The notes: generated from the letters alone by a model not told the origin. Shown: positions 16,134 to 32,003, numbered from the stretch's first letter. The stretch: 64,000 bases of DNA from Erythrobacter sp. HKB08 (GCF_004114695.1 NZ_CP035310.1:1657501-1721500), one strand, 5' to 3'. Program-made: numbers and translations.

Positions 16134-18302
16134 CTATTCGATAGCGTAGCGGGTGCGCAGGCTGAAGCTGCTCCCGGCAGCCATGCTCCCGCTTGGCCGG
16201 ATGCGGAAATGCGTAATGTTCGCATCGCACCCATCGGCATCTGCGGTCGGCTGGTATGTCCAGCTCGCCCCGCCGTCGGACGAGAACTCGAGATGGTCCG
16301 CTGCGTCCGTCAGCGACGAAAAATTGTAGGCCAGTCCGCTAGTCGGTGAGCCTTGCGTAAAGACGACGGGCAAGCCCGACCCCGCCGCATTGAAGCACAT
16401 CTTTGCTTCTGGCGGACCGGCATCGGCGATCGAAATCGTATTGGCGTCGGTCGGCGAGATGCCGGTGTTCGACACCGTGATGAGATAGTCGACCAGCGCG
16501 CCCGGGATCGCCTTGGGATTGTTGGTCCCGTTGACCGGATCGGACACGAGCGAACTGACCTTCGTCACCGAAAGTGCGGTTGCCGGACGACAGAAATTGA
16601 TGTCGTGCAGGGCAATCCCCTGCTGTCCCGGATCGCTCGGCGCGAGCGAGTGGTTTCCGTAGCGGATCACGATCGTATCGATGGGCTGCGAAAAGGTGAC
16701 GGTGATGTTGCCGTCGGGACGGTCGGAATCCGACGCGGCATCGCCATAGGCGGTGTTCCCGATGACATAGTTTGATGCGCCGTTCGTCACCGTCGGAGTG
16801 ACCAAAGCGCCGTTCAGTCGTCCGAACACTTCGATCCGGTCGGCGAACTGCCCGGCTGCGTAGTCGATATCGAAAATGCTGAACTGCGCGCCCTGCATCT
16901 TGGCCGGCAGCGAAATCGTGGTGGTCACGACCTGCGATGTGTTGGCCATGTCGACAAGCTGCAGCAGCGTGAACTGCCCGGTGCCGCCGTGGACGATGTT
17001 CTGCCGCGAGGGAGACTGGCCCCCTACGGTGGCATTGTTGAGCCAGGTGCCGGGGTTCGACATCGAGAAGCCGATGTTGCCGAGGGTTCCGAGCGAGTAG
17101 GAGGCCGAGGTGGTGCCGGCGGTCCAGGAGATGCTGTCCCAGTCGAAGATGATATTGGAGTTCGGGCACGAAAGGACGGGCGGCGTACCGGCAACACGCG
17201 GGCCAGCAACCGTCATGGTAGCAGTCGCGTAATCGTCCTCCGACGTTGCGCCGTTCGCCGGGGTCGAGTCGCTGTCGAAGGTGCTGCTGGCCCAGACTTC
17301 CGCCCGGTTGGTCAGGACTGCCCCTGCGCTCGCATTGATCGTCCCGCTGATGTCCAGCGTGACGCTTTGGCCCGGAGCGAGGGTACCGGCATTCCAGTCA
17401 CCGGTCGTCGGATTGAAGGTCCCGGTACCCGTGTGGCCGGTATAGTTGAAACCGGCAGGAAGGGTGTCGCGAACGACGACCCCGGTGGCGGTCCTGCTGG
17501 AAAGCGACGAATTGGTGAGCGTGAGGCGGAAAGTGGCCGTGGCGCCGGAAGCCGGGCTGGCATTGAGCGCCGTCTTCGCCAGCGACAGGTCGGCGGCAGG
17601 ACGCGCGTAGGAGAAGTCCGAGATGCCCGTGAACTGGCCCGTGGGGTCGCCGGTGCCCGTGTAGCTGAAATAGACGATTCGGATCCGTTTGACCGCGGTC
17701 GTACCGAAATTGAATCGCAGGTCGCCATTGGTCGCTGCCGTGTCCGACGGAGATACGCCGGTCCAGCCGTTCACCGCCGCATCGCTGGTCCTGCTGACCG
17801 AGACACTCGCGGTCCAGAAGCCCGAGTTTGTCGCCGAGTTCTGCCACACGCCATTGCCGGTGTCGTAATAGACCTCGATCGCATCACGGAACGAGCCGTT
17901 GTCGATATCGGTCAGCACGAACTGCAGGTTCTTTACCGCTTCCGACAGGTTGAAAATCGTCGTGATCTTGTCGTTCGGATCGTAGCTCGAGTTGTCGAAG
18001 TTGAGCAGCAGCGGCTGCGGGGCGCTGCCGATCGTGCCGGTATAGTAGGACAGAAATCCGCCATAGCTGGGCACGAACGTACCGCCGTTGACCTGCGCGC
18101 TGTAGCTGACCTGCACACTCGTGCCGTCGGTGCCGGTCGCAGTGAAATTGCTCGGCGCCGCCTGGAGGTTGGTCAGGCCGGCAGAGGCCCAGTCGATCGT
18201 TTCGGTCTGCGCGCTCGCCGGCGCAGCGATCAGTGCCGCAAAGGCTGCCAGAAGGCCTGCGATAGCCCGAAGGAGCTTCGGCGAGATGGCGTGCCCCGTC
18301 AT
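16134..18302 (-). CDS. Exported DUF11 surface protein, last gene of the surface operon
   Basis: A 722-residue secreted protein. It has a signal peptide (LLAAFAALIAAPASA, cleaved before QTE). Two related beta-sandwich regions sit at about 35-230 and 375-570; both contain NFDNSSYDPND- or DIDYAAGQFADR-like patches and describe-type strands. Two DUF11 repeats follow: LSLAKTALNASPASGATATF from about 240 and LSVTKVSSLVSDPVNG from about 575. The last 60 residues hold the module SSDGGASW...ITHFRIRPSG and end in RTRYAIE, like the smaller relatives in this operon and at 31581. Its start overlaps the stop of the barrel gene by four bases (ATGA), so the two are translationally coupled. No anchor is visible, so it is presumably surface-retained through partners. 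Confidence 0.82.
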   Translation of the reverse strand: MTGHAISPKLLRAIAGLLAAFAALIAAPASAQTETIDWASAGLTNLQAAPSNFTATGTDGTSVQVSYSAQVNGGTFVPSYGGFLSYYTGTIGSAPQPLLLNFDNSSYDPNDKITTIFNLSEAVKNLQFVLTDIDNGSFRDAIEVYYDTGNGVWQNSATNSGFWTASVSVSRTSDAAVNGWTGVSPSDTAATNGDLRFNFGTTAVKRIRIVYFSYTGTGDPTGQFTGISDFSYARPAADLSLAKTALNASPASGATATFRLTLTNSSLSSRTATGVVVRDTLPAGFNYTGHTGTGTFNPTTGDWNAGTLAPGQSVTLDISGTINASAGAVLTNRAEVWASSTFDSDSTPANGATSEDDYATATMTVAGPRVAGTPPVLSCPNSNIIFDWDSISWTAGTTSASYSLGTLGNIGFSMSNPGTWLNNATVGGQSPSRQNIVHGGTGQFTLLQLVDMANTSQVVTTTISLPAKMQGAQFSIFDIDYAAGQFADRIEVFGRLNGALVTPTVTNGASNYVIGNTAYGDAASDSDRPDGNITVTFSQPIDTIVIRYGNHSLAPSDPGQQGIALHDINFCRPATALSVTKVSSLVSDPVNGTNNPKAIPGALVDYLITVSNTGISPTDANTISIADAGPPEAKMCFNAAGSGLPVVFTQGSPTSGLAYNFSSLTDAADHLEFSSDGGASWTYQPTADADGCDANITHFRIRPSGSMAAGSSFSLRTRYAIE

Positions 18303-21300
18303 TTGCGGCCTAGCCCCAGAAACGAGAAGCTGTCTGCGTCGAACTTGATCCGGACACTGGCGTAGAGACCCTCATCGGTGTCGCGCATGCCCGAAAAGTC
18401 GGGGTCGCGAAAGCCGGTTATGTTGTAGCCGACATTGAGCAGCACGCCCTTGGCCGGGACGAACCCGACGTTCGGACCGACGGCATAGCTGACCGTGTCG
18501 TCACCGAGGTTTGCACGCACGGTCGCGCTTGCCCCGATCTCGAAGCGCTCACCGACACCGATCCGTGCATCGAGCCCGGCGAAGGTCGAAACGCTGTCCA
18601 GTTCGAACCCGCCATAGCTATCCAGATTGTAGCGAGCGCCGAGGAACAGGCCGATCTCGCTGCGGCGGGCGAGTTCTTCCGTCTCGTCGCCGTCGCGGGG
18701 CGACCAGTTGGTCGAAAGGCTTGCGATCAGGCGCTTGGCGCCGGCATCGCCCGAAACCGTCAATGCGGTCCGACCCGCAGGGCCGGCTTCACCCAGCACT
18801 GCATTGGAGACGGAATCGCTACGGAACTCCAGCTTCCCGAGGAAGGCAATTTCGGATTCTGCGGGGCGATGAGCCAGCGCGATTGCCGCGTCCATGACTT
18901 CGGTCTGCGCGCCATTGGTGCCTTCTGCCGTGGTCCAGCTGAAGCCCGAACCGACCACGCTACCTTCGCCGAGCTGTCGGATCGCACCGAGCGACACACC
19001 CCAGCGGTCGGCATATTCGCCATCGCGATATTCGCCGCGTGCCGTCGCGCTCCACGCTCCATCGCGCCAGGCTCCGCCGAGCGTTACTGCCGTAAAGTCC
19101 TCGAAGAGCGCGCCGCCGGGACCGAACTGGCCGCCGCTTGCTGCAGGCTGGTCGACATTGACGAGATCGTCGACCTGCGGCGAACCGTCGAGGGTCCAGT
19201 TGCTGTCGAAAGTGGCATCGAGCGACAGCTTCGGGTTCACCTGCCAGGTCTGGGCGAGGCCGAAGGCTGCGAAGCTGCGATTGCCACGTTCGCCGATATC
19301 CTGCTTGCCGAGCGTGCTGGAAACGCGCCCGCCGACCCACGGCGTTAGCTCGAAACCGCCGCGCAGCGTGCTGCTTTCGAAACCGTTGCCATCGGCAAAT
19401 TCGTAGTCGGCGATGATCCGCACGTCGTTCGTGATCGCGTAGCGCGCGCCGACACGATGGCGCAGGGGCAGGTCGACGGAATCGGTCGAATCGAGCGGCA
19501 TCGAAGTCGCAGCCGTCAGCTCGAGCTTGTTGTGGAACATGCGCTGCGTCGCGCCTGCTTCGAGGACGGTGGAACGGTTGGAAGTGCCATCCGTGAGACG
19601 GTCATCGAAATGCGCGATGCCGACGCGGATGTCGGAATTGGTCGAGGAATAGCCGAGTTCGACCTGGGCAGCACGGCGACGGGCCGCATCGGTCAGGCTG
19701 TCGTCCTGCCACAGGCTCGCGATAATGCTCATCTGCTCCGAGAGGCGCATGCGGGCATCGGCACCGATCTTCCGGCGACCAAGCTCGGCATTGTTCTGCT
19801 GGCCGACCCCGAAGGTCGATTCCGCCGACTTGGCATAAGCGAGCAGGTCGAGCTTGCCCGACTGGTGCTGCGCTTCGATCAGCCAGGCCATCGAGTTTTC
19901 GCCCGAGGTACGGCTGCCGGCGATTTCCGCGCGCAGTTCGGTCGAATTGCCGAGCTTGGCGCGAAGGTCGAGACCGACGATGTTGGTCCGCAGGTCGTCG
20001 CCGCCATCGCTGATCATGGTTGCACCGATGCGAAGGGTGTCGCCGCCATTGCGCCAGTCAATCCGTCCGCCCGCATTCATGACGCCGCCGCCGAGCTGGT
20101 CGGTTTCATATTCGATGACGATGAACTGCGGGTTGAGATCGAAGTCGCGGCTCAGGACCGGCTGCTTGAAGCTGATCGTGCCGGCGAGGAAGTCGATGTC
20201 GTAGTCGAGGAAACGCGTCAGTTCGCGGCGCTCGACGATGAGCTCGGAACGGAAGCGGTCGCGGACTTCGAGGATGACGTTTTCGGTATTGGGGACGATC
20301 GCCCGGCTGCCGAGACGATACGGTCCGCTGATACCCTGTCCCTGGATCTCGTCACGGCGGAAGCGGGTTCCGGCTTCGGCGCCGAACGCCTTGATACCGA
20401 ACTGGCCGATCCGCGCTTCGCCGCTGACGCCGGTCGCCACGCGGCGATAATTGGCAAGGCGCGTCTGGTCGAAGTTGGTTTCGAAATCGCCATACTGAAC
20501 GTTGAAGGCCGGCCCCTCGACGCGGGCATAGACCTTTTCGCGCGATGCTGCGTCGAACTGGCGAACGGATGCGTCGCCGAAGACCGTGTAATAGGCTTGC
20601 GGATCGAGCGTGCCGAGCACGCGCTGATCGCCCCGGTCCTTCGCGCTGTCATAGGCGAAGGTGACCAGAAGGTCTTTCGCGACCGGGCCCTTCGCATAGA
20701 CCGCGACGCGGGCTTCCTCGCCAAGGTCGCTTGCGAAATTGCCGGCGCGGTCCATTCCGTCGGCAACGGTGCGCGAACCGATCGATGCTTCGGCCAGGCC
20801 GACGACGGTCCAGTCGATATCGCCGGGGGCGATCCAGGTTTCCAACTGCTGTTCGCGCGACACTTCCCCGTCGTCGAAACGGAAGGTCAGCTGCAGGGCG
20901 CCGCTGGTCATCGTCGGGGCAAGCTCGATCAGCGCGATCCCGCTTTCGTCGGCGACCGTCCAGCGGGCCGAGGTAGGGCCCTGGCGGGTCAGCTGGTTCA
21001 GTTGCTGGCGGGTAATCTGCTCGGCGCTTTCGTAGGGCGCATTGAGCGTGAAGTCGCCGGACACGCCCTCGCGAAGCGGGCGATTGTTCCGATCGAGAAT
21101 GCGGACCGCGACAACCGGGCGAGTGCGACCGTCGGCCACCAGGCGAGACTGGTCTGCGACCAGTTCGACCTTGGTCGGGAGGTTGGTGAAGAAAACGGGG
21201 CGCTCGTGGCGCGACGCGACAAAGCCGTCCGCACCGAGAATCTCGGCCGCCAGCAAGGTCCGTTCGCCGGACAGCGGCACGCCGCGCCAGGTGCTCACGG

Positions 21301-23353
21301 CGAATCCGCCGCGCTCGGGCTTGCGGATGCCGTCGAAGGCCAAGGCGTCGACAGGCTTTCCATCGACGAACAGGCGCACGGTCTGTTCTTTGCGGTGGCG
21401 GATCGCGACGCGGATGGCAGGTGCGCGCGGGTTCGCATCGAGCGTCGGGGCGAGCCAGCCGTCCGGGCCATCGCCGAGCGACAGCCAGTCGGTTTCATTC
21501 GGGATTGCCTCGCCCTCGACCGTGTCGGAGAGGGTCGGGCTATTGGCGTTGCGTTCAGCCGCCTCGACGCGAAGCTGGTCGAGCACATCCTGCGGCACGG
21601 TTGCATGGAAATCCGCCACGGCAAGCGATCCGCCCTGTCCGATAACGAACAGCGAGGTTGCGCTGCCGGCGCTGCGGGAGGACCGGTTGCAATCGACGAA
21701 GCCCGAGCCTTCCGGCAGCGTCATGGGCGACGCCTGTACGACATGGGTGCCCGGCACGACTCCGTCGAAGTGATATCGGCCGTCCCGGTCGGTGATCGCG
21801 AAGCTGCCGTCCTCGAGCATGACGCGCACGCCCGGGATGCCGATACGTCCGCTGCGAACGCTGCAGTCGCCAGCGGAAATCCGTCCGATGATGGTCATGC
21901 GGCCGCTGATTGCGTCGCGCTCGACGCGCACCGACGCTTCCGTGCGCGAGGATCGGCCGAGGCTGTCGGTCACTACTGCGACGTTGTTCGCATAGCCCGG
22001 CTGGGCATCGGGACGCACTGTCATCGCATAGACGATGCGGCTCGAGCTTCCGCCGGCGATGTCGCCGAGCGAGAATTGCAGGCTGCGCCCGTCCGGAGCG
22101 ATGCTAACACTTCCCTCCGCCGGTTCGGCGCCGTCGATCCGGACGGAATCGAGGCGCGGACGAAGCCAGACAGACGGCGTATCGACCACGGTCACATCGC
22201 GCTTCACGCGGAACGGATCGGTGTTGCGGACAGTCAGAGTGTAGAAGATCGCATCGCCGGGCTGGGCGATCTGGCGCGATGCCTCCTTGGTAATGGCAAC
22301 TGCACCCGAGGGCGCATCGAGCGGAATGTCGATCTGGACCGGAGTCGGGTCGGTCAGCACGAAGCTGGCGCCGTAGGATGCATCGGTAATTACGAAGCTG
22401 CGCCCGTCAGGCCGCGTCAGCCGCGCAATCTCGTTGGGCGAGGCTTGCGACGGCGCGCTGTAGGGGGAGGGGGGCTCGATCCGCAGGACGTAGGTCCCGA
22501 GATTGGTTAGCGGGAACCAGAACTCGCCGGCGCCCATTTCGACGACGTTTCCGGTGGCATCGGTGACCGGCTCGCCTGAAATTACCGTCGATGGCCAAGG
22601 GGTTACGCCATCCTCGGCGAAGACCTGCGCAGGTTGGCCGGTGATTGCATCGACCAGCGAAACGACCGCGCCGGAAACCGGTGCGCCGGTCTCGCTGTCG
22701 AAGACCACGCCGAACGGATCCGCAAGCACGCTTACCGTGGTCTGCAGAACGATCGTACCTTCGCCCGGGCGCAGGGCGCTGATCGTTACGACATCTTCAT
22801 CGACGACGCTGAGTACGCAATCGCCGGGCTGCACCGGCGGCGGCGTCCGGCGTGTCGCAATCCGGCCAGCAAAAACTCCGGTGTTCTCGCCAGTCTCGAA
22901 GACGGTGATCTCTTCCTGGTCGCCGGATCGGCCGTTGATCCGGATCGCCAGGCTGTCGATCGCACCGGCATCGGTATTCGCTTCGGGCAGGGCGATCGTG
23001 AAGATCAGGTCCTGGCCTGCGCGAAGCACGCTCGTCGGCTTCACATTGGTCAGCGTCGGCGCGTTTGCCCTCACCGAGGAGGTCGAAATCGACGTGCCGC
23101 ATGACGGCTGGTAGATGGCGTATTGCTCGCCCATCCCCGGGACGTAGGTGACGATCTCGGGCGGACGCGTCGCCACTTGCAGCTCGACCGGGTTGGATCG
23201 GCCGGAATATTCCCGACCATCGTGCGACCAGCTGGCATTCGCGACGTTGACGATCGTTTGCGCACGCGCCGGCCCTGCAGGCACGACCGATTGCAGCAAT
23301 ACCACGAGGAGTATTGCTGCAATCAGGCGAACTGAGGACCGGCAAGCGTGCAT
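18299..23353 (-). CDS. Giant exported protein: Ig-like/DUF11 modules plus probable outer-membrane beta-barrel
   Basis: A 1684-residue protein with a Sec signal peptide (AAILLVVLLQSVVPAGPARA, about 12-31). The N-terminal half is modular: an opening strand module (IVNVANASW...SNPVELQV), a repeat ending GENTGVFAGRI, a carboxypeptidase-regulatory-like fold (FDSETGAPVSGAVV), a DUF11 domain (AVAITKEASRQIAQPGDAI, about 350-460), an SdrD-B-like fold (GVRVMLEDGSFAITDRDGRY) and a Big-type fold (VADGRTRPVVAVRI). The C-terminal 750 residues alternate hydrophobic and polar residues in short strands with turns rich in G, D and N, as in outer-membrane barrels, and finish near SFSFLGLGRK. It is plausibly the outer-membrane anchor or exporter of the operon. 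Function is not known. Confidence 0.8.
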   Translation of the reverse strand: MHACRSSVRLIAAILLVVLLQSVVPAGPARAQTIVNVANASWSHDGREYSGRSNPVELQVATRPPEIVTYVPGMGEQYAIYQPSCGTSISTSSVRANAPTLTNVKPTSVLRAGQDLIFTIALPEANTDAGAIDSLAIRINGRSGDQEEITVFETGENTGVFAGRIATRRTPPPVQPGDCVLSVVDEDVVTISALRPGEGTIVLQTTVSVLADPFGVVFDSETGAPVSGAVVSLVDAITGQPAQVFAEDGVTPWPSTVISGEPVTDATGNVVEMGAGEFWFPLTNLGTYVLRIEPPSPYSAPSQASPNEIARLTRPDGRSFVITDASYGASFVLTDPTPVQIDIPLDAPSGAVAITKEASRQIAQPGDAIFYTLTVRNTDPFRVKRDVTVVDTPSVWLRPRLDSVRIDGAEPAEGSVSIAPDGRSLQFSLGDIAGGSSSRIVYAMTVRPDAQPGYANNVAVVTDSLGRSSRTEASVRVERDAISGRMTIIGRISAGDCSVRSGRIGIPGVRVMLEDGSFAITDRDGRYHFDGVVPGTHVVQASPMTLPEGSGFVDCNRSSRSAGSATSLFVIGQGGSLAVADFHATVPQDVLDQLRVEAAERNANSPTLSDTVEGEAIPNETDWLSLGDGPDGWLAPTLDANPRAPAIRVAIRHRKEQTVRLFVDGKPVDALAFDGIRKPERGGFAVSTWRGVPLSGERTLLAAEILGADGFVASRHERPVFFTNLPTKVELVADQSRLVADGRTRPVVAVRILDRNNRPLREGVSGDFTLNAPYESAEQITRQQLNQLTRQGPTSARWTVADESGIALIELAPTMTSGALQLTFRFDDGEVSREQQLETWIAPGDIDWTVVGLAEASIGSRTVADGMDRAGNFASDLGEEARVAVYAKGPVAKDLLVTFAYDSAKDRGDQRVLGTLDPQAYYTVFGDASVRQFDAASREKVYARVEGPAFNVQYGDFETNFDQTRLANYRRVATGVSGEARIGQFGIKAFGAEAGTRFRRDEIQGQGISGPYRLGSRAIVPNTENVILEVRDRFRSELIVERRELTRFLDYDIDFLAGTISFKQPVLSRDFDLNPQFIVIEYETDQLGGGVMNAGGRIDWRNGGDTLRIGATMISDGGDDLRTNIVGLDLRAKLGNSTELRAEIAGSRTSGENSMAWLIEAQHQSGKLDLLAYAKSAESTFGVGQQNNAELGRRKIGADARMRLSEQMSIIASLWQDDSLTDAARRRAAQVELGYSSTNSDIRVGIAHFDDRLTDGTSNRSTVLEAGATQRMFHNKLELTAATSMPLDSTDSVDLPLRHRVGARYAITNDVRIIADYEFADGNGFESSTLRGGFELTPWVGGRVSSTLGKQDIGERGNRSFAAFGLAQTWQVNPKLSLDATFDSNWTLDGSPQVDDLVNVDQPAASGGQFGPGGALFEDFTAVTLGGAWRDGAWSATARGEYRDGEYADRWGVSLGAIRQLGEGSVVGSGFSWTTAEGTNGAQTEVMDAAIALAHRPAESEIAFLGKLEFRSDSVSNAVLGEAGPAGRTALTVSGDAGAKRLIASLSTNWSPRDGDETEELARRSEIGLFLGARYNLDSYGGFELDSVSTFAGLDARIGVGERFEIGASATVRANLGDDTVSYAVGPNVGFVPAKGVLLNVGYNITGFRDPDFSGMRDTDEGLYASVRIKFDADSFSFLGLGRK

Positions 23354-23394
23354 AGACAGCGATCCGGTCGCCGCGGTGCGGCGACCTTGACCTA

Positions 23395-24441
23395 TCAGTC
23401 GATCGTCACGGTGAAGTAGAGGGTCTTGGTCTCGCCACCCGCCACGTCGTCGAGCGCTTCGCTCACCGATGTATTGGCAGTGGTATAACCATTGACCTCG
23501 CTACCGCCCGAGCAAACGCCCGAACCGTCGACCGTGCCATTGACCATGACGTCGCCGGTGGTGCCATAGGCATCCGGGTAGAACGTCACTTCGGCCGGTA
23601 GCGTATCGCTCACCGTGATACCGGTGGCGGTCGCAGCGCCCGAAGCGTTCGAAACCTGGATGCAGTATTCGACGCGCGCGCCCGGGATTGCGTAGGGCGA
23701 CGAGTCGAGGTTGACCGGATCCCAGACGACCCGGCTGGTCTTGACCACGGTCACCGCTGCCGCATCGACCGTGATGGTGTGCGAAGCGGAGTAGTCGCCT
23801 TCGTAGTCGGAATCGCTCACGCCCGACAGGTCGGCCAGGACGGTATCGATACCGTTCTTGTCGTTCGCGGTAGCCGTATCGATGATTTCGGCACCGATGC
23901 TGCCCGAACCCGCTTCATGCGCGTTCGCGGTCAGGATGATATCCGTCGACTGGCCGTTGGTGGCCGTCGCAGGAATGTCGAACGATACCCAGACATCGAA
24001 GCTGGCGTCCGGCGCAAGGGAATCGATGAAGTCGATTTCCTCACCGGCATCATATGCGCCGTTGCTGTTGGAATCGACGAAGATGGTAACGTTTTCAAAC
24101 GTGTAGTCGGGCGATGCGACCTGCGAAGCGGTCAGATCGAAACCGACGGTATCGTTCGAAAGGTTCGTCACCGTGAACTGGCGGACGACACCATCCTGAT
24201 TGGCCGAAACCGTCGGCGATGCGCCAACGGCTGCGACCGTCACGTTGATCTTGCGATCGACGGTAAACTCGTCGGTTGCCTCGACGGCAGTCTGTTCGAC
24301 GCCGCCTACACTGAAGCTGACCGAAACATTGTTCTGGATTATTTCGCCGGCCCCGGTTCCCTCGGCCATCGCGGGCGTCACCGAGAAGGCGACGAGCGCT
24401 ACCGAACTAACCGCACCCAGCAATTGCCTGGAGCGTTTCAT
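23395..24441 (-). CDS. Exported DUF11 family protein
   Basis: A 348-residue secreted protein. It starts at ATG 24441, with a GAGG motif nine bases upstream and a signal peptide right after it (GAVSSVALVAFSVTPAMA, cleaved before EG); an in-frame ATG 33 bases upstream is less likely. The mature protein opens with the module GAGEIIQNNVSVSF, continues through a beta-sandwich with an acidic calcium-loop-like segment (DSNSNGAYDAGEE), and then a DUF11 domain introduced by VTVVKTSRVVWDPVN and AIPGARVEYCIQVSN. It ends in LYFTVTID. It is a clear paralogue of the 25008-25973 gene, with the same order of modules. It sits 41 bases upstream of the barrel gene. Confidence 0.83.
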   Translation of the reverse strand: MKRSRQLLGAVSSVALVAFSVTPAMAEGTGAGEIIQNNVSVSFSVGGVEQTAVEATDEFTVDRKINVTVAAVGASPTVSANQDGVVRQFTVTNLSNDTVGFDLTASQVASPDYTFENVTIFVDSNSNGAYDAGEEIDFIDSLAPDASFDVWVSFDIPATATNGQSTDIILTANAHEAGSGSIGAEIIDTATANDKNGIDTVLADLSGVSDSDYEGDYSASHTITVDAAAVTVVKTSRVVWDPVNLDSSPYAIPGARVEYCIQVSNASGAATATGITVSDTLPAEVTFYPDAYGTTGDVMVNGTVDGSGVCSGGSEVNGYTTANTSVSEALDDVAGGETKTLYFTVTID

Positions 24442-24508
24442 AGCTATGGTCCTCACTTGATTCTTCGCGCTCAAACCCGCCCGCGAAGTCTGGCGGTGGA
24501 TCCTGGGA

Positions 24509-24988
24509 TCAGCGGATGATCGCCGGATATTCTAAGCGGCCGGTTTCGCCGGGCTCGACGCGGTCGAGGGTCCAGCGAATGTGCGTGACATCGGAATGCA
24601 CCGCAGCACGGCTCCCGCCTTCTGCGAGAGCTACGACGAGCTCGGACAGGAGGCCCCATGTGTTGCCGCCATCGACCGACACCACGAGCGCCGGATCGGC
24701 TTCGGGTGCGAGACGCACGGCCTTGGGAAGGGGGTTGGTCATGACGAAATCATCGACAGCGACACTTCCGGTGTTGGTGTAGTTCGTGCCGAAGATCAGC
24801 TTGTCGCCCGGCACCGCCCGGTCGGGTTCGACCAGTTCCGTGCGGGTCTCGCCGCCTTCCTCGATGACTTGCTTGACGACTTTGACGTCGCCTTCGAGCG
24901 TGATCGGCTGCGATTGCGCAAAGGCAGCGGCATTGGGAACCGCTACTGCAATCAGCGCTGCGCTGACAATTTTGACGAGCTTTTTCAT
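24509..24988 (-). CDS. Small exported single-domain DUF11-like protein
   Basis: A 159-residue secreted protein. ATG 24988 is chosen because the signal peptide MKKLVKIVSAALIAVAVPNAAAFA starts there. One DUF11-like domain follows: VKVVKQVIEEGGE, then AVPGDKLIFGTNYTNTG. The C-terminal module is VSVDGGNTWGLL...VTHIRW, and the protein ends LEYPAIIR. It is homologous to the orphan gene at 31581-32003, sharing the VSVDGGxxWG segment, VTHIR and the final YxAI[IV]R. It lies between the two larger DUF11 paralogues, 19 bases after the first gene, so it belongs to the same transcript. It could be a minor subunit, a cap or a periplasmic chaperone-like partner; none of these is shown. Confidence 0.8.
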   Translation of the reverse strand: MKKLVKIVSAALIAVAVPNAAAFAQSQPITLEGDVKVVKQVIEEGGETRTELVEPDRAVPGDKLIFGTNYTNTGSVAVDDFVMTNPLPKAVRLAPEADPALVVSVDGGNTWGLLSELVVALAEGGSRAAVHSDVTHIRWTLDRVEPGETGRLEYPAIIR

Positions 24989-25007
24989 TATCTTGCGACC
25001 TTTTTTG

Positions 25008-25973
25008 TTAGTCGATTTCAACCTGGAAGGTGACCACTGCGCTCGAGCCGCCGGCAACGGTGCCGAGGTCGACCGAGATGCCTGCTGCGTCCGCCTCGCC
25101 GGCATCGTCACCGGTTGCATCGGTCAGCGAAGTACCGTCGAGCGTGAGGGTGCCTGCAGTGTAGGAAGTGCCCGCCGGATAGGCGTCGGTAACGACGAGA
25201 TCGTCGACCGAACCGCTGCCATCCACGGATGCTGTAATGGTATAGGTGACGATCGAGCCGGGAACGACGGTCGTCCCGCCGAACGGGTCGGCCACGTCGG
25301 CTGTCTTCACCAGGGAAACGGTCGTGATACCGACGACGAGTGAGCTGTCGGCTGTCGCGCTCGCGCCGGTCGCTCCGACGACTGCATCGACACCGCTTTC
25401 GCCTTGCCCGTCGAACACCGTGCCCGGTGCGCCGGTACCCGTTGCAGCGGCGGCGGTCAGTTGCACGGTGCTTTCCTGCGTATCGGCGGCATCGGCCGGG
25501 ACGGTCACGACAACAAAGACCGTGATCGCCGCATCCGCATCGAGGACGGATGTCGTCTCGGGTGCAGTCAGGATTTCGTCGATCCCGTCGTCGTAAACCC
25601 CGTTGCCGTTGGTATCGACCGCGATCGCGACGACGGTGGTGTCGAAGTCGTTTCCGGCAACCACGGGCTCAGCCGTCAGTTCGAACGCCTCGGGTCCGTT
25701 GCCGGTGTTCGTAACCTCGAACGTAAGAACTGCCTGTCCCGGGGCAGTTCCGACCGGACCTGAATCCAGCGTCGTAACCGTCACGTCGAGCAATTCGTCC
25801 ACCGACAGGTCGACCGTATTGGAATCGACCGTCGTCTCGCCATCCGGCGTCGTATAGGTCGCCGTGGCGGTGTTGGAGATGATCGTGCCGGCATCGACGC
25901 CCTCGGCAAGGGCAGGGGTGCTGACAAGCGAGGCTACCAACATGGGGGCAGCAAGGATCGTGCGCGTTTTCAT
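25008..25973 (-). CDS. Exported DUF11 family protein, first gene of the surface operon
   Basis: A 321-residue secreted protein with signal peptide MKTRTILAAPMLVASLVSTP-ALA (cleaved before EG). The N-terminal module reads GTIISNTATATYTTPDGE...SNTVDLSV (29-60). A beta-sandwich with an acidic loop DTNGNGVYDDGID (120-132) recalls dockerin or EF-hand calcium loops. A DUF11 domain begins at VSLVKTADVADPFGG, and the protein closes with VTFQVEID. No membrane anchor, LPXTG or PEP-CTERM tail is present. Being first in the operon and small, it is a candidate major subunit. The ribosome-binding site before ATG 25973 is weak. Confidence 0.83.
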   Translation of the reverse strand: MKTRTILAAPMLVASLVSTPALAEGVDAGTIISNTATATYTTPDGETTVDSNTVDLSVDELLDVTVTTLDSGPVGTAPGQAVLTFEVTNTGNGPEAFELTAEPVVAGNDFDTTVVAIAVDTNGNGVYDDGIDEILTAPETTSVLDADAAITVFVVVTVPADAADTQESTVQLTAAAATGTGAPGTVFDGQGESGVDAVVGATGASATADSSLVVGITTVSLVKTADVADPFGGTTVVPGSIVTYTITASVDGSGSVDDLVVTDAYPAGTSYTAGTLTLDGTSLTDATGDDAGEADAAGISVDLGTVAGGSSAVVTFQVEID

Positions 25974-31580: not shown

Positions 31581-32003
31581 TCAGCGCACGATCGCGCTGT
31601 AGGTCAGCCGACCCGAACTGCTGCCGAACGTCCGCAAGCGGATGTGCGTAACCTCTTCGGGGGCGGCGAGCCTGCGCCCGACGCGCAGATTGCCGAGCTG
31701 GCCCCAGCTGCGCCCGCCATCGACCGAGACTTCGAGCTCGTCCGAACTTGCGCGCTGAAATTGCAGCGATTCGGGAATCGGGCTGGAAACGACGGTCCCC
31801 CGACGCGCTTCGGCCCCGGTCCATTCGACGACGAGTACCACGCGGTCGCCGCGGCGCAGGTTTTCCGCGCGCTCGACGGTGCGCGTGCTCGCAGCGTCCA
31901 TGCTCTCGACGAACACTGCGCGCGACAGGGCCACGCGGTCCTGTGCGGCAACGCTGCCTGTGCAAACCAGCGCTCCGAGCGCCAAAAATGCCCCAATTCG
32001 CAT
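31581..32003 (-). CDS. Orphan small exported protein related to the surface operon
   Basis: A 140-residue secreted protein with signal peptide MRIGAFLALGALVCTGSVAA (cleaved before QD). The mature part is a single beta-rich domain with LRRGDRVVLVVEW, VSVDGGRSWGQLGNL, EVTHIRLR and a C-terminus LTYSAIVR. These match the 159-residue protein at 24509-24988 segment by segment, so the two are paralogues although unlinked and about 6.5 kb apart. It is convergent with the E2 gene (four bases) and transcribed alone. Its function is unknown, presumably connected with the surface proteins. Confidence 0.75.
   Translation of the reverse strand: MRIGAFLALGALVCTGSVAAQDRVALSRAVFVESMDAASTRTVERAENLRRGDRVVLVVEWTGAEARRGTVVSSPIPESLQFQRASSDELEVSVDGGRSWGQLGNLRVGRRLAAPEEVTHIRLRTFGSSSGRLTYSAIVR

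Follow-up and report, generated by a model that had tools for sequence, protein, structure and literature searches.

A five-gene operon of Erythrobacter sp. HKB08, located within a 64,000-nucleotide stretch of its genome (the window, from whose first letter all positions are counted), probably encodes an outer-membrane fibre whose subunits are complemented by donor hairpins and crosslink themselves through autocatalytic Lys-Asn links. We also lean slightly towards a broader reading, in which a naturally split isopeptide domain, with its hairpin as "tag" and its body as "catcher" on each subunit, would act as joint and weld at once in bacterial fibres of a new class, the fibre would exit via a giant usher-like barrel that is covalently built into its base, and the system would extend to several diderm phyla, with Deinococcus radiodurans among its carriers.

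The genes are referred to as A to E in the order of transcription, which occupies the minus strand at positions 16134-25973 (Table 1). The spacing is tight, with ~19 nt between A and B, ~67 nt between B and C and ~41 nt between C and D, and D and E overlap as ATGA. An earlier note on this DNA had described five same-strand genes, close together or overlapping, with secreted-type starts, and all of them are present as given; Sec-type signal-like sequences, as judged by eye, are found at the start of all five products. The two paralogues of 320-350 residues that it pointed out are A and C (~27-33% identity), and their 159-residue relative, B, resembles the orphan at 31581. Housekeeping genes flank the operon on both sides, and promoter and terminator scans returned nothing above chance. 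In the 2.75-Mb genome, DUF11 matches are found only in the operon genes: Pfam detects the domain in C, D and E, whose proteins pass the gathering score, and in A when the C-terminal domain is searched alone (28.3 against a cut-off of 24.6).

Table 1. Genes, domain halves and predicted barrel features of the operon, with the orphan paralogue of B
Feature	Position	Strand	Content or basis
Gene A	25008..25973	-	321 aa; signal peptide, donor hairpin, complete Ig-like domain (~59-216), incomplete DUF11 acceptor
Predicted donor hairpin of A (residues 24-60, Asn34)	25794..25904	-	Conservation; strands 31-42 and 45-57 at pLDDT ~95; restored DUF11 match
Acceptor of A (residues 212-321, Lys223, Asp263)	25011..25340	-	Pfam DUF11 positions 11-84 of 114 only
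Gene B	24509..24988	-	159 aa, start ATG at 24988; acceptor-like domain without donor
Gene C	23395..24441	-	348 aa, start ATG at 24441; donor, Ig-like region, incomplete DUF11 acceptor
Predicted donor hairpin of C	24247..24363	-	Conserved Asn; chimera gains; donor-profile matches
Acceptor of C	23398..23763	-	Conserved Lys/Asp; DUF11 match
Gene D	18299..23353	-	1684 aa; donor hairpin, Ig-like region, complete DUF11, CarboxypepD_reg, Ig-like domains, predicted giant outer-membrane barrel
Predicted donor hairpin of D (residues 31-62, Asn36)	23168..23263	-	Conserved Asn; donor-profile matches
Complete DUF11 (CLIPPER) in D, triad Lys356/Asp391/Asn457	21914..22306	-	Pfam PF01345; conserved triad
Predicted barrel of D (~residues 845-1684)	18302..20821	-	>30 long strands; first 24-strand part closest to FimD/PapC ushers
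Predicted plug-like insert in D barrel (~residues 996-1085)	20099..20368	-	After six barrel strands; in stretch shared with other large barrels
Gene E	16134..18302	-	722 aa; variable N-terminal modules, C-terminal acceptor, no donor
Acceptor of E (residues 574-722, Lys581/Asp627)	16137..16583	-	Conserved Lys/Asp
Orphan paralogue of B	31581..32003	-	140 aa, outside the operon; weak second copy of B

DUF11 is a CnaA-like domain (CLIPPER) in which an Asp residue assists a Lys-Asn isopeptide bond, as in the structure 9IFR, and in CnaA-like domains the bond links the first strand (Lys) with the penultimate strand (Asn) (PMC12617251). A, C and E end in a domain, hereafter called the acceptor, that comprises strands 1-7 with a near-invariant Lys and a near-invariant catalytic Asp, and the chain stops before the last two strands, including the Asn strand. 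The two missing strands are found at the mature N-terminus of A, C and D as a predicted hairpin with a near-invariant Asn, hereafter called the donor. The two halves occur together in A and C; D has only the donor, E has only the acceptor, and B is acceptor-like. The complete triad of Lys, Asp and Asn resides in one domain inside D, and the acceptors of A, C and E contain Lys and Asp only. The N-terminal part of E is composed of two diverged copies of one module with a complete DUF11 domain between them.

These residues are retained throughout the orthologues. In A, N34 is found in 69 of 72 proteins and K223 and D263 in 71 of 72 each; the donor Asn, the Lys and the Asp of C are present in 74/74. 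The donor N36 of D is conserved in 76 of 77 orthologues, K581 and D627 of the E acceptor in 62 of 63 each, and the complete DUF11 domain inside D retains its triad almost without exception (K 77/78, D 78/78, N 77/78). B carries Asn at the Asp position in 71 of 74 orthologues and keeps the Lys in only 48 of the 74. The orphan, which sits between a dehydrogenase E2 gene and tRNA-Asp, is likewise acceptor-like and non-catalytic, with no Lys and with Ser at the Asp position. Donor profiles match A, C and D at their N-termini and yield no matches to B or E, and with the D donor profile every one of the 72 A proteins is matched at its N-terminus (median E 6e-8). The earlier note had proposed that the exported members share N-terminal and C-terminal strands in general. 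Both kinds of strand exist, but the pattern I-x-N-x-A...S-N-x-V is limited to A, C and D, and the C-terminal strands to A, B, C and E. As read from the protein sequences, the key to the operon is that the two patterns are complementary rather than general. As far as primary structure goes, the residues, their conservation and the distribution of the half-carriers show a DUF11 domain that is split between subunits.

With the N-terminus of A appended, the C-terminal domain of A scores 35.1 instead of 28.3 bits against Pfam DUF11, and the match covers profile positions 11-113 of 114 instead of 11-84. The same N-terminus, appended to the C-terminal domain of C, raises the score from 31.7 to 38.3 bits; a reversed N-terminus as control gives 27.5 bits, and a chimera with the D donor gains 3.4 bits. 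A local profile was also made from nothing but the complete DUF11 domains within D and E; against it, the donors of A and C add 5-7 bits in 70-74 sequences, compared with ~0 for shuffled donors, and the D donor adds only 0.8-1.2 bits. When the complete domains, 9IFR and the joined halves are placed in one alignment, the Lys, Asp and Asn columns are in register, and the C-terminal stop of the acceptors coincides with the loop ahead of the Asn strand. The hmmalign output for the chimeras had the donor Asn one column off, which on inspection proved to be an alignment artefact; in the explicit alignment this Asn is in register. A search of the joined halves against the PDB yields 9IFR as the sole match, a weak one (E 4.7), and the full-length A profile found no relative there.

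The AlphaFold2 model of A (mean pLDDT 90, pTM 0.66) predicts a confident hairpin at residues 31-57, followed by a complete Ig-like domain at ~59-216 and then by the C-terminal domain. Integrin domains rank first for A in Foldseek; this is a resemblance common to tandem Ig domains, and we did not count it as evidence. The main doubt about the fibre model is that A and C may close on themselves. In such circularly permuted monomers, the hairpin of A or C would complete the C-terminal domain of its own chain, and an intramolecular bond would give stable monomeric surface proteins. The same permuted order is indeed present within one chain, and TasA is self-complemented as a monomer before polymerisation (PMC9674648). 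However, a complete Ig-like domain lies between the hairpin of A and its open domain, with hardly any linker on either side, and the end pieces argue against self-closure, as E and B have an open domain without a hairpin and D has a hairpin without an open domain. Since these halves are unmatched in their own chains, intermolecular pairing would be needed for E, B and D at least, and we consider it unlikely that the operon produces only closed monomers.

The earlier note had suggested a comparison of the gene order, and the order A-B-C-D is kept in 14/14 relatives and over ~70 mostly sphingomonad loci. In a search within the family, D is encoded in 14 of 60 relatives; in every one of these, A, B and C lie next to it in order, and E or an E-like gene usually comes after it. 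In the order as a whole, D is matched in 73 of 298 genomes, and all of the matches listed fall in the same family. Eighty loci were collected from named genomes, nearly all of them sphingomonads (Erythrobacter, Qipengyuania, Novosphingobium, Tsuneonella and others), and 70 of the loci have enough upstream DNA. By a strict neighbour rule, A, B and C are found ahead of D in 64 of the 70; C is present in the remaining 6 too, and we took these as cases in which C overlaps a mechanically extended start of D. E directly follows D in 56 of 67 loci and is elsewhere sometimes missing or moved, being the least conserved member of the operon in both length and position. Because the gene order and the triad residues are conserved over ~70 loci, the arrangement is not due to chance. 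In one genome the whole operon is present twice, at separate locations (L028 and L029). At two further loci, L104 and L107, E-like genes run in the reverse orientation, as many as three of them consecutively in L107, which suggests exchangeable tip proteins.

The survey also bears on an arrangement in which D is a dedicated exporter and anchor, and A, C and E are each attached singly to its hairpin, resulting in short surface complexes and no polymer. The close resemblance of the D donor to the A donor and the overlap of the D and E genes are consistent with such attachment, and the barrel together with the N-terminal Ig domains could make a display platform. This is difficult to reconcile, however, with A and C carrying both halves, which is the signature of chain members rather than of end pieces, or with the finding that A, B and C accompany D in every locus with enough flank, whereas it is E that may be absent or displaced. 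We therefore regard single attachment as improbable.

Related versions of the operon are found in Gammaproteobacteria, Rhodobacterales, Deinococcus and cyanobacteria. In other Pseudomonadota (L134-L140), B, one or two subunits and D occur together, mostly with an E-like gene, and the same donor N-termini and truncated acceptors are present. The pattern is plasmid-borne in Acinetobacter haemolyticus, Pacificitalea, Synechococcus NIES-970 and Deinococcus radiodurans MP1, and in the latter two the barrel has a gene of its own, apart from the donor-DUF11 part of D. On plasmid MP1 of Deinococcus radiodurans R1 (L151), the parts of D are A2G07_RS15125 and RS18350 and the subunit is RS15130, annotated as DUF11 or hypothetical. 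Lys and Asp are present in all non-B acceptors examined among the distant plasmid systems. The exceptions to the residue pattern are one A-like protein with Ser in place of the donor Asn (L135), D proteins without a clear donor Asn (L137, L139 and L140), and two distant B proteins and one cyanobacterial B that keep the Asp. In L142-L146, a giant DUF11 protein of ~1.8-2.4 thousand residues adjoins a barrel gene of 1.1-1.4 thousand residues with no A, B or C, and the barrel has only the core stretch of D (~884-1159) in common; these loci possibly represent a simpler adhesin-export pair.

An outer-membrane barrel had been anticipated in the last 750 residues of D, and the last ~840 residues are modelled as a large barrel. 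The model of residues 485-1684 (mean pLDDT 79, pTM 0.72) contains ~40 long strands, and its top Foldseek matches are nearly all outer-membrane barrels, with the SlpA outer-membrane protein at rank 1. Upon realignment, FimD and PapC are the best, with Z of 14.6-16.1 over ~845-1368 compared with 14.3 for unrelated porins, so that the lead of the ushers over other barrels is only ~2 Z. Ushers have a barrel of 24 strands with a plug between strands 6 and 7. In the D model, six long strands, as in ushers, precede the insert at ~996-1085, which on the basis of the model may be a plug, and ~12 further strands extend beyond the usher-sized part. SprA, the 36-strand barrel of the type 9 translocon, is among the Foldseek matches with E 1e-5, a score that many barrels share, and NCBIfam gives no match for residues 485-1684, the SprA model included. 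No barrel family is named for D by Pfam and NCBIfam, the comparison of its sequence with the PDB gave nothing useful, hhalign detects no similarity to FimD, and the usher and chaperone families, PF00577 and PF00345, are found neither in the genome nor in 13 D orthologues. Since D has no sequence relation to FimD and the genome is devoid of the classical families, D may be usher-like in its action while standing outside the usher family. Type 11 secretion was also considered and rejected, its matches being mostly to DUF1194.

The same pairing of halves could instead build a periplasmic or S-layer-like scaffold, with D as its outer-membrane tether and no extracellular fibre. The first rank of SlpA among the Foldseek matches of D points in this direction, but pilus ushers come first when the matches are ranked by VIA, and E, which has several modules, is diversifying and stands at the end of the chain, as is typical of adhesins; we give the scaffold little credence. 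Least probable is that the operon belongs, as a divergent member, to the classical chaperone-usher family. Such a member would share the same logic (acceptor-only tip, donor N-termini, barrel), the gene order of usher and then tip adhesin, and FimD/PapC as the best structural match of D, but is disfavoured by the sequence and family searches described above and by subunit domains that are DUF11, with B being an acceptor rather than a donor chaperone.

The fibre thus remains our preferred reading. The earlier note had proposed a surface fibre or layer anchored by the barrel, and the barrel model, the kept gene order and the matching domain halves support this or are neutral to it, a fibre now being favoured over a layer; a barrel fold is predicted in the C-terminal part of D, and the products, rather than being unrelated proteins, carry matching halves of one domain. 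Since A and C carry both halves, E the acceptor only and D the donor only, we infer a chain made up of tip, shaft and base. Subunits would be exported to the periplasm, where B may hold the hairpins without reacting, possibly as a strand-capping chaperone or a non-covalent cap. E, with its lone acceptor and variable outer modules, would lead as an adhesin-like tip. A and C would form the shaft, the N-terminal hairpin of the next subunit entering the open domain of the preceding one, head to tail. Insertion of the hairpin would complete the fold, and the Lys and Asn would then bond on their own. The growing chain would reach the surface through the D barrel, and the D hairpin would close the last open domain and weld the fibre to the outer membrane, making D both the exit channel and the covalent base.

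If this is correct, the operon would represent a widespread, undescribed self-welding fibre of two-membrane bacteria, with no need for a PapD chaperone or a sortase. It would also supply a function for many DUF11 proteins that are so far unexplained and carry the annotation hypothetical, and provide a natural counterpart of laboratory tag/catcher chemistry. The earlier note knew of no described system with such a make-up, and in the open-access papers searched we came across neither this operon nor any DUF11 domain divided between subunits; because the search was mostly confined to such papers, the novelty is provisional. We regard the operon as a new variant among donor-strand fibres, with a fair chance of constituting its own class.

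Chaperone-usher pili (FimA/FimH/FimD) resemble the proposed fibre in the N-terminal donor, the incomplete Ig subunits, the acceptor-only tip, the outer-membrane barrel that is the best fold match of D, and the gene order. They differ, however, in that there is no sequence homology, and the present system has a two-strand donor hairpin, no PapD chaperone, predicted covalent bonds, and in D a larger barrel protein with a donor of its own. In Bacteroidota, type V pili likewise perform donor strand exchange at the outer membrane. Their subunits are made as lipoprotein precursors and the exchange is triggered by a protease, whereas neither feature was seen in this operon. TasA is another known donor-strand fibre. 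Sortase pili possess an LPXTG-type sorting signal; here none is visible at the C-terminus, and the subunits end right after a strand.

Archaeal threads (Saci_0406) combine donor-strand complementation with a proposed intermolecular isopeptide bond, but that bond connects an Asn side chain with the N-terminal amine of subunit n+2, and the threads belong to archaea, with no DUF11 and no outer membrane (PMC9715654). The residues in this operon, unlike those of the threads, suggest a Lys-Asn bond. As cited in PMC12617251, phage capsids and one helical fold are known to form Lys-Asn bonds autocatalytically between molecules; capsids of the HK97 type form such bonds with another fold and a catalytic Glu, and build a capsid rather than a fibre. 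DUF11/CLIPPER domains (PF01345; 9IFR) belong to the same family, have the same Lys-Asp-Asn positions and occur in surface proteins, but those known are complete, with the bond within one chain (PMC12617251), whereas in this operon the domain is split between chains. In split tag/catcher systems such as SpyTag/SpyCatcher (PMC5487036, PMC6539128), an isopeptide domain is divided into a strand with one reactive residue and a body with the other; these systems are engineered, whereas the operon described here would be a natural version that forms a polymer.
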